From Actinomycetota bacterium (GTDB lineage Bacteria; Actinomycetota; Aquicultoria; Subteraquimicrobiales; UBA9087), in assembly GCA_030019215.1 (NCBI GenBank), contig JASEEZ010000004.1, forward strand, positions 27,028-91,027: a DNA stretch of 64,000 nt, in the 5' to 3' direction. A model generated the notes under the pieces. That model was given only the letters and a program-made list of their open reading frames with translations, did not search any database and was not told where the DNA came from. Below, piece by piece: positions 42,433 through 55,145 of the stretch (the first letter of the stretch is position 1; each line of letters begins with the position of its first letter). The position numbers and the translations under genes are program-made.

Positions 42433-43236
42433 AGGGGTCAGACCTCCTCATCCCATTTCACCAGGCAAAACAAATTCTTATTTTAAATTTCGGCAGACAT
42501 TGTTCCTTTGAAGCTAAGATAATATTAAAATATCGCTATGGTTATTTAATTGAAGGATTGGAGATGGGAAAATGCCTCGAAAACCAAGAATTGATCTCTC
42601 AGGCCAGCTTTATCACGTAACTGTAAGAGGCAACAATAAAGAGGATATATTTATCGATAAATCAGACAGAGACGTCTATTGTAAGTACTTGAGAAAAGCA
42701 AAAGAAAAATATTGTTTTTTCCTATATTGTTATGTCTTGATGAATAATCATGTTCACTTACTTCTCAGGCCTACTGAAAAAGGAGCAGTATCGAAAATAA
42801 TGCAATCAATAAATACTGGATATACTATGTATTTTAACTACAAATACAAGAAGTGTGGTCATCGCTTTCAAGGTAGATATAAAAGCTTTCTGGTGGAAGA
42901 GGAGCCCCATTTTCTTGAGCTTTTACGGTATATTCATCAAAATCCTGTCAGAGCAGAAATAGCGAGGAGAGTTGAGGATTACCCATACTCCAGTTACTTT
43001 GCTTATTTTGGAAAAGCGGAGGATAAATTGGTCGATATAGGAGAGGTGCTTTCTCGGTTTGGTGCAAGAGAGTCGGTTCAAATAAAAAGGTTTAAGGTTT
43101 TTATCGAAGATATAAGGGAGAGAAATATCTATAGACCTGAACGATTTATGAAAGACGGTTTAATTGTAGGAAGCGAAGAATTTAAAAATAAGATTTTTAA
43201 ATTGCAGGTAAATAGCAGTGGAAAGGTCTGACCCTG
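42433..43236 (+). mobile_element. RAYT/IS200-like single-strand transposon
   Basis: Left GGGGTCAGACC (42434) and right AGGTCTGACCCT (43224) bracket the transposase ORF. Confidence 0.7.
42572..43231 (+). CDS. REP-associated tyrosine transposase (Y1_Tnp, RAYT/TnpA_REP)
   Basis: LYHVTVRGNNKEDIF, YCYVLMNNHVHLLL (HUH), GHRFQGRYKSFLVE..LLRYIHQNPVRA. Confidence 0.9.
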   Translation: MPRKPRIDLSGQLYHVTVRGNNKEDIFIDKSDRDVYCKYLRKAKEKYCFFLYCYVLMNNHVHLLLRPTEKGAVSKIMQSINTGYTMYFNYKYKKCGHRFQGRYKSFLVEEEPHFLELLRYIHQNPVRAEIARRVEDYPYSSYFAYFGKAEDKLVDIGEVLSRFGARESVQIKRFKVFIEDIRERNIYRPERFMKDGLIVGSEEFKNKIFKLQVNSSGKV

Positions 43237-44027
43237 ATTTGGATTTAGAGGAAATCCAGGACGATCTCGGGCGAGTTGTAGAAGAATTGAGGCAAGAGGC
43301 TCGTGGTGGCCCTCGCTTGCGGCGGGGCGAGAACAAGCTCATCTTTCAAACCATGAAGGACGAACTCGATGAGTACCCCCTTCGGGCTGCCCTGCTTCTT
43401 TTATCCGCAAAATTTGGCGACTATGATTTTGAAAGACTGAAACCGGCCGCTGTGGGCATTGAATTGCTCAATCTGGCCGTGCGGAAACACTATCCTAGAC
43501 CAGGGGCCAGGGTACAGGGGCTAAAGACAAGGGTCATGGGTCAAGGGGCAAGAGAGGAAGGACGAAGGACGAAGGACGAGGCATCCTTTGGCAAGCTCAG
43601 GATAAAGCCGTCATCCGACAACTTTTCTTTAATCACTGGCGATTACTACTACGCCAGGGCCGTTTCCCTCGGTTCTACTTTCGACGACACTAGAGTGGTA
43701 AAGATAATGGTTCAGGCAATCTCCGAGATCGCCCAGGGCGAGGTTGAGTCGCAAAAGTCTTTGAACAAGAGTGCTCTCAAGAAGCTAGCTTCCCTCTATT
43801 CGGCTTCCTGCCATCTGGGGGCCTTGATCAGCGGGGTCTCTGAAGTGGCGACGAAGGTCCTCAAAGAGTATGGCCTGAACCTTGGCGCGGCTTATAGATT
43901 GACCAGCGAGATGCATGAAAAGGGCGAGCCTCAAAAATTTCTAACCCTGGCAAGGAAGGCACTGGTGGACTTGCCATCAAATAAACATCGCTTCCATCTC
44001 GAACAACTCGCCGATTCCATACCCTAG
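43218..44027 (+). CDS. Degenerate polyprenyl-synthase-like protein with in-frame heptad-repeat insertion
   Basis: Aligns by eye with the 49994 gene product (LRAALLLLSAKFGDYDFERLKPAAVGIELL; ITGDYYYARAVSLGS; SLYSASCHLGALISG) but lacks both DDxxD motifs. Confidence 0.6.
   Translation: MERSDPDLDLEEIQDDLGRVVEELRQEARGGPRLRRGENKLIFQTMKDELDEYPLRAALLLLSAKFGDYDFERLKPAAVGIELLNLAVRKHYPRPGARVQGLKTRVMGQGAREEGRRTKDEASFGKLRIKPSSDNFSLITGDYYYARAVSLGSTFDDTRVVKIMVQAISEIAQGEVESQKSLNKSALKKLASLYSASCHLGALISGVSEVATKVLKEYGLNLGAAYRLTSEMHEKGEPQKFLTLARKALVDLPSNKHRFHLEQLADSIP
43495..43625 (+). repeat. Heptad array within the polyprenyl-synthase-like ORF
   Basis: ccaggggccagggtacagg...gggtcatgggtcaaggggcaagagaggaaggacgaaggacgaaggacgag...gtcatccgac. 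Confidence 0.8.
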
Positions 44028-44039
44028 TCGCTGGTCGAA

Positions 44040-44290
44040 CTGCCTTTCAATCCAGGGGCCAGGGGCCGGGAATCATGAGTCATGGGTCAAGGGACAAGGG
44101 TCATGGGACGAGGGACGAAGGACGAAGAGAGCAGAGAGCAGTGAGCAGAGAGCACAGAGCACAGAGCACAGAGCACAGAGCGTAGAGCGTAGAGACAAAA
44201 GATTTTTCTCTAAGCTCTAAGCTCTGGGCTCTAGGCTCTAAGCTAATAAAGCTGCCAACTAATACGAATTCCGAATAGTGAGTTACTAAT
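44040..44290 (+). repeat. Mosaic heptad array
   Basis: (GGGTCAA/GGGACGA)n, (GAGCAGA/GAGCACA)n, gtagagacaaaagatttttctct, (AAGCTCT)n, gccaactaatacgaattccgaatagtg. Confidence 0.85.
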
Positions 44291-49993: not shown

Positions 49994-50968
49994 GTGGCTG
50001 ATTCTCCTTTATCACCCCGAGTCATGCGGGATCTGAAGAGGGTGGAGGAAGAGCTTGAGAAAGTAGTCTTCTTGGACGAAGGAGAGTTGCGTGAAGCTTC
50101 CTTGACCACACTTCGGGGAGGAGGAAAGAGGCTCAGACCGGCTCTGGTTCTGATCTCTGGCCAGGTGGGCTCCCATGGTCTTGAGAGCCTAATCCCCGCA
50201 GCGGTGGCGGTGGAGTTGATTCACATGGCCTCGCTAATTCACGATGATATCGTGGACGGTGCCGATTTTCGAAGGGGACTGCCCACCGTGAGTTCAACCA
50301 AGGGCTTGTGCGTGGCTACCGCCGCAGGGGATTTTCTCTTCGCTACGGCCTTCGTACTTTTGTCGGGACTGAGAAGCGGGAGAATAGAAGCTGTGAGGAT
50401 GATGGCCGAGGCAGCGAACATTCTCAGTCTGGGTCAAATTCGCCAAATGGAGATGGCCCACAGGACCGATCAAAGTATGGAGGATTATCTTCAGATGATT
50501 TGGAGCAAGACGGCGATACTGTTTACGGCCTCCTGTCGCTTGGGTGGATTGATCTCCGGGGCAGGGGAAGAAGAGATTGATTTCCTTGGGCGGTACGGAG
50601 ATAATCTGGGCATGGCTTTTCAGATCTACGACGATGTGCTGGATATAACCGGAACCGAGGAATCGTTGGGCAAACCCGTTGGGATCGATCTCAAAGATGG
50701 AACGGTGACGATGCCCATCCTCTTTGCCTTGGAGGAGACGAGGTTCGAGCGGGAGTTGTGTGCGGCCATTGAGTCCCCCAACTTGACCGAGGAGGAAATA
50801 TGCAGGGGAATGGAGATAATCCTCAGCACCAGGGCGTTGGAGAGGTCTAAAAAAGAGGCAAAAAAATATATGGAGAGGGCCATTGATAGCGTGAGGTTTC
50901 TTTCCAAACCGGAAGTAAGAGAAGAGCTTGTAACTATCGGAAAATTTGTGATAGACAGATACCACTAG
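49994..50968 (+). CDS. Polyprenyl diphosphate synthase
   Basis: GGGKRLRPAL, LIHDDIVDGADFRRG, YDDVLDITG. Confidence 0.92.
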   Translation: MADSPLSPRVMRDLKRVEEELEKVVFLDEGELREASLTTLRGGGKRLRPALVLISGQVGSHGLESLIPAAVAVELIHMASLIHDDIVDGADFRRGLPTVSSTKGLCVATAAGDFLFATAFVLLSGLRSGRIEAVRMMAEAANILSLGQIRQMEMAHRTDQSMEDYLQMIWSKTAILFTASCRLGGLISGAGEEEIDFLGRYGDNLGMAFQIYDDVLDITGTEESLGKPVGIDLKDGTVTMPILFALEETRFERELCAAIESPNLTEEEICRGMEIILSTRALERSKKEAKKYMERAIDSVRFLSKPEVREELVTIGKFVIDRYH

Positions 50969-54924: not shown

Positions 54925-55145
54925 TTGCGAACAAAGCCACCAGCTGCCAAGGGTCAGGGACGAAGGACAAAAGGCGAAGAGAGCACAGAGCACAGAGCAG
55001 TGAGCAGAGAGCGTAGAGACAAAAGATTTTTCTCTAAGCTCTTGGCTCTGAGCTCTAAGCTAATAAGATCTGTCAACTGTCAACCGTGAACTGCCAACTA
55101 ATAACGAATTCCTAATAACGAATAGCGTCATCCGACCTCAGGCGG
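54925..55145 (+). repeat. Mosaic heptad array
   Basis: gggacgaaggacaaaaggcgaag, (GAGCACA)n, gtagagacaaaagatttttctctaagctcttggctctgagctctaagctaataa, gtcaactgtcaaccgtgaactgccaac, aataacgaattcctaataacgaatagcg. Confidence 0.85.

Follow-up and report, generated by a model that had tools for sequence, protein, structure and literature searches.

Several families of short repeats that lie within or between the genes of prokaryotes have been described. In the neuO gene of E. coli K1, every three units of the poly-psi repeat (AAGACTC)n encode a 7-residue peptide, the full-length protein is made only at multiples of three units, and the repeat region is disordered in the crystal structure (PMC3046976, PMC13001214); moreover, neuO activity increases with the heptad number (PMC3046976). 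The Rickettsia palindromic elements are reviewed as repeats of about 150 bp that encode a conserved peptide and lie in frame in unrelated metabolic genes (PMC10969869). In Geobacter metallireducens, heptanucleotide elements with the consensus GGACCGG consist of four tandem units and are present in 49 copies (PMC2700814). Other heptad families are represented by the TAACTGA direct repeats of Beggiatoaceae, whose in-ORF copies lie mainly at protein ends (PMC4679880), and by the GGGAATC/GGGGAYT repeats of Xanthomonas and Nostoc (PMC4692102). Lastly, the tandem repeats of Borgs create disordered regions, and the hotspot gene TolA carries different repeats across Borgs (PMC9879509).

The locus analyzed in this work is a heptad array embedded in frame in a gene of an Actinomycetota genome (G000, 1.63 Mb) of a little-known deep-branching lineage. 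On the published descriptions, neuO is the closest system in its working, since its heptanucleotides, too, are coding, each 7-residue peptide takes three units and the repeat region is disordered; its repeat, however, consists of perfect copies of a single word and lies at the N terminus of one phase-variable prophage gene, whereas the G000 arrays combine degenerate, mixed words with a REP-like element, occupy internal loops of unrelated housekeeping genes and belong to a genome-wide intergenic family. The Rickettsia elements, as reviewed, are the closest in genome behaviour, being dispersed repeats in frame within unrelated genes, but in G000 the repeats are tandem heptads and the peptide varies between lineages; the insert does not have the features of a palindrome of about 150 bp with a conserved peptide, and its REP part folds no better than shuffled sequences. 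The Geobacter family, too, lies both between and within genes, but it is compact and built on one word, and no in-gene orthologue comparison was found in its description (PMC2700814). The TAACTGA and GGGAATC/GGGGAYT arrays are likewise genome-wide and mostly intergenic; they are described as having one dominant word per genome, whereas the arrays of G000, which are many and mostly intergenic (STRR/TAACTGA-like), mix many word classes. In the account of the TAACTGA repeats (PMC4679880), the in-ORF copies do not occupy loops common to orthologues, unlike the G000 arrays. Borgs share the disordered segments and a conserved hotspot gene with differing repeats, but they are archaeal extrachromosomal elements with varied repeat units, whereas G000 has a fixed 7-nt unit on a bacterial chromosome. 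None of the systems compared, as far as the cited sources describe them, unites mixed words with REP composites and with the occupation of the same internal loops across orthologues; since precedents exist, each without that combination, the G000 arrays can be regarded as a variant of a known phenomenon.

The features discussed below are listed in Table 1; plain coordinates refer to the window, that is, the whole stretch of 64,000 nucleotides that was analyzed. The named relatives in the class are Candidatus Oleimmundimicrobium, Subteraquimicrobium and Geothermocultor MAGs, on which a literature search found nothing.

Table 1. Position of the host gene, of its insert and of the related repeats and genes in G000
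Feature	Position	Strand	Remarks
RAYT element	42434..43234	+	bounded by GGGTCAGACC and GGTCTGACCC
REP-associated tyrosine transposase ORF	42572-43231	+	NCBIfam NF047646 above cut-off
Host gene, non-catalytic polyprenyl-synthase-like paralogue	43218..44027	+	269 aa; Pfam PF00348, 6.8e-9
In-frame insert (linker)	43494..43619	+	codons 93-134, 126 nt; from alignment with orthologues
Heptanucleotide core	43500..43583	+	12 units in one unbroken phase, 84 nt = 4 x 21
REP-like element	43580..43609	+	GGCATCCTTTGGCAAGCTCAGGATAAAGCC; abuts/overlaps the 3' end of the heptad core
Intergenic composite heptad array just 3' of host gene	44052..44249	+	word order as in the insert
Catalytic paralogue	49994..50968	+	DDIVD and DDVLD; PF00348, 1.3e-66; HepT-like
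HemD loop of the CobA-HemD fusion	L066:1297-1342		ACCCGAC heptads; filled in several relatives too
Heptad and REP composite between the AhbA and AhbB domains	L066:10480-10575
Array between lpd and LipA	L059:12040-12180		possibly translated as a LipA N-terminal extension

The original prediction, based on the letters of this DNA, had described in the host ORF a translated segment encoded by the heptad words found between genes, and had estimated it at about 126-130 nt with the frame preserved. The ORF, the segment and the words were all as described, and the length measured falls within that estimate (Table 1). The core reads CCAGGGG, CCAGGGT, ACAGGGG, CTAAAGA, CAAGGGT, CATGGGT, CAAGGGG, CAAGAGA, GGAAGGA, CGAAGGA (twice) and CGAGGCA, and its number of units is divisible by three, as in neuO. 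Lag-7 identity over 43500-43580 is 0.69 vs. 0.33 +/- 0.05 in dinucleotide shuffles, none of which (0/2000) reaches 0.69. Fourteen regions of the window pass the lag-7 threshold and 0-3 do so for each of the other lags from 4 to 13, many repeat regions being found window-wide for lag 7 and its multiple 14 only. What had been taken for a heptad array alone proved to be a composite of heptads and a REP-like element, and the 3' end of the linker, GTCATCCGAC, is a remnant of CCGTCAT/CCGACAT words. The net excess of the insert varies with the orthologue chosen as reference, amounting to 37 codons against the shortest linker (5 aa) and to about 31 against array-free relatives (linkers of 10-11 aa). 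The exact insert is single copy in our data; the genome of the same genus, G001, is incomplete, its contig beginning just 3' of the host gene.

The host protein shares 29% identity with the paralogue at 49994. Catalytic polyprenyl diphosphate synthases possess two aspartate-rich DDxxD motifs; both are present in the paralogue and absent from the host gene and from all its orthologues in the class. The statement that the insert sits at the first DDxxD of the paralogue is thus correct as an alignment position but misleading, all the orthologues being without the motif. The idea that the insertion destroyed it was rejected for the same reason, the motif having been lost before the insertion. The model of the host protein matches solved polyprenyl synthases, including the heterodimers 9kp1 and 3aqb, and those of B. 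subtilis and M. luteus are among the structures matched; the protein probably serves as the small, non-catalytic subunit in a prenyl diphosphate synthase of the heterodimeric type. In the AlphaFold model (mean pLDDT 74), residues 95-132 have a pLDDT of about 30 and are flanked by well-predicted helices (71-91 and 132-152), so that the insert is modelled as a long disordered loop between helices.

Comparison with the orthologues revealed that the linker at this site is heterogeneous in the class: 42 aa in G000, 5 in G012 and G005, 12 in G021, 19 in G017, 21 in G002, G003 and G004, 29 in G009 and 6-19 in the other members. Both insert-free and differently filled linkers were observed directly, some orthologues in array-bearing genomes having a short empty one. 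Significant heptads occur only in G000, G021 (TCCCGAC x4) and G002/G003/G004 (AACCCGA x4), all from array-bearing families, and are marginal in G017 (p 0.09). The linker of G021 is exactly 7 aa longer than that of G012. The peptides encoded are unrelated (RLPTPDS, QPETLNPK, GRRTKDE). Period-7 arrays are present in sampled stretches of the families of G000, G021/G012/G024 and G002/G003, and were not found in those of G009 (44 kb), G013 (60 kb) and G022 (40 kb). The original prediction was to fall if orthologues of array-free genomes carried the same segment; the linkers of these last three genomes revealed no heptads, that of G009 being KE-rich, and the prediction therefore stands. In G002, G003 and G004 the dN/dS of the array-bearing orthologues is about 0.25, which indicates purifying selection and therefore working genes. 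That a single site holds three word sets with no relation to each other suggests repeated events. Replacement of words within a single ancestral array could give the same picture as independent insertions, and we keep this option because, in the array of the LipA region, G000 and G001 have both ends in common and a different middle block (REP vs. GTTGACG-type words; net 12 nt).

A second position with orthologue evidence is a loop of HemD in the CobA-HemD fusion, which is filled with heptads in G000, G024, G012, G017 and G005, retains one residual TCCCGAC unit in G021, and in 15 other genomes is 5-11 aa long and devoid of heptads. Here the sequence is AAAC(TCCCGAC)4CATCT in G017 and AAAC(TCCCGAC)1CATCT in G021; the flanks match and the lengths are exactly three units (21 nt) apart, in agreement with the predicted requirement for multiples of three units. 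Hence, orthologues at two gene positions, independent of each other, support the idea of insertion or expansion of arrays within genes. The array of the AhbA-AhbB fusion is flanked on each side by a siroheme decarboxylase subunit that scores above the cut-off, and the linker of relatives differs, with PTGRQAG-type palindromes. Two other candidates were downgraded as clear in-gene cases: the LipA array lies between the lpd stop codon and the conserved LipA core, with a possible downstream TTG start, and that of AhbD is N-terminal with an uncertain start codon.

The survey of G000 covered 441 of 1628 kb (27%), was aimed at contigs known to hold arrays, and used ORFs rather than curated genes and calling thresholds set by us; it retrieved 90 period-7 arrays, any other period giving at most 18. 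Only 12 of the 90 midpoints fall in ORFs, which cover 86% of the sample, a strong depletion. GTCA words are found on the 5' side of CGA words in 16 arrays and on the 3' side in one. The insert matches other arrays better than do 199 of 200 versions of it with permuted units, and 54 nt of it can be aligned ungapped with one intergenic array. A local duplication from the array just downstream of the host gene is not favoured as a source, since other arrays match better. Part of that array (44124-44252) can form a hairpin with AGAGCNN and NNGCTCT arms, six paired bases and one unpaired per heptad (z -4.95), and a weaker one exists at 54963-55105. As a general property of the arrays this was rejected, the median fold z of 70 arrays being -0.29 vs. 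-0.20 for random genome windows. The G001 contig L118:1-7121 begins just after the same array (44296), which suggests that heptad arrays fragment assemblies.

The core of the REP-like element, TTYGRCAAGCTCAGG, has 18 copies in G000 at no more than one mismatch, and the element recurs in the AhbA-AhbB and LipA arrays. It accompanies three of five gene-associated arrays and none of the 85 others (Fisher 8.5e-5, on a split chosen after looking), an association to be treated as a lead. The genome harbors six RAYT-type genes (six Y1_Tnp matches), one of which adjoins the host gene. The right end of this RAYT element supplies the GTG start and the first codons of the host gene, which has therefore been struck by two different repeat elements. 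The REP TTCGACAAGCTCAGG and the RAYT end GGTCTGACCC are different sequences.

On this basis, we consider it likely that the insert is a copy of a dispersed composite array that landed in a surface loop and was retained because it was in frame. According to this model, a block of heptad words in the usual order, together with the REP-like element, would have been copied into the loop, possibly through recombination, template switching or RAYT-assisted insertion, and the insert would have been kept in a non-catalytic prenyl-synthase-like protein since its frame stayed intact. A stop-free heptad word encodes one 7-residue peptide whatever the frame of entry, because a 7-nt unit passes through the three frames in 21 nt. 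Inside genes, only gains or losses summing to multiples of three bases would survive; expansion by three units might occur most simply by replication slippage, and three-unit steps after arrival are those that frame selection on slippage predicts. The encoded peptide may be tolerated rather than useful.

The main alternative is that the array was born in place, a short seed having grown by slippage within a permissive linker of low complexity, independently in each lineage and with no copying between loci. The different words per family at one site and the exact 21-nt steps fit this idea, and the pure four-unit arrays of G021 and G002 do look slipped. In G000, however, the many words of the insert share their order with distant intergenic arrays, and slippage alone yields neither the 54-nt ungapped match nor the dispersed REP element; the conserved word order and the REP disfavour a slippage-only origin, which we judge unlikely. 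Indeed, the 16:1 word order, the permutation result and the ungapped alignment argue that a multi-word block was copied, and whole blocks appear to be copied besides slipping in place.

It seems very improbable that the locus is a contingency locus like neuO, in which frequent changes in unit number switch the protein on and off or tune its activity. The unit length and the three-unit rule are those of neuO, whose activity is reported to rise with the heptad number (PMC3046976), but degenerate words lower slippage, the host genes code for housekeeping enzymes and not for surface structures, and all the in-gene arrays found are in the ON frame, even though an ORF-based search would miss broken genes. 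We give still less weight to a pseudogene or an assembly artefact, which the replacement of the 5' end by the RAYT element, the MAG origin of the assembly and the contigs broken by repeats might suggest: the frame is open over 269 codons, identity to orthologues is about 40% 3' of the insert, and the same phenomenon recurs in several independently assembled genomes. Least credible of all is the view that selection for function has kept a linker of ancestral origin, in which the repeats merely resemble intergenic arrays, since, although all orthologues have some linker and the KE-rich one of G009 is 29 aa long without heptads, the heptads are confined to array-bearing genomes and encode unrelated peptides.

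Copying of composite blocks thus remains the preferred reading: intergenic heptads have become established within functional genes as well, and the frame is kept there because units are gained and lost three at a time and the added residues form a flexible loop. This represents a natural experiment in the passage from intergenic repeat to protein, as a given loop is empty in some related genomes and holds one word or another in the rest, with exact three-unit steps; the choice of a 7-nt unit can be tested in coding DNA, the frame acting as a filter. Annotators should consider peptides such as GRRTKDE, PTPDSR or SFGKLR in these genomes as repeat-encoded, and alignments around heptad-filled loops as misleading. 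More tentatively, we can speculate that the heptad and REP composites are a class of dispersed elements that move as blocks and repeatedly enter the same loops of core enzymes, a possible, though doubtful, general route to new disordered segments; if true, frame-independent 7-nt coding would be a general source of them. Elsewhere in the phylum, other families too have period-7 arrays, the words of which (GGTTCAT, GTGAACA) look similar (L149:7469-7506, L150:4274-4385 and L151:15205-15271).
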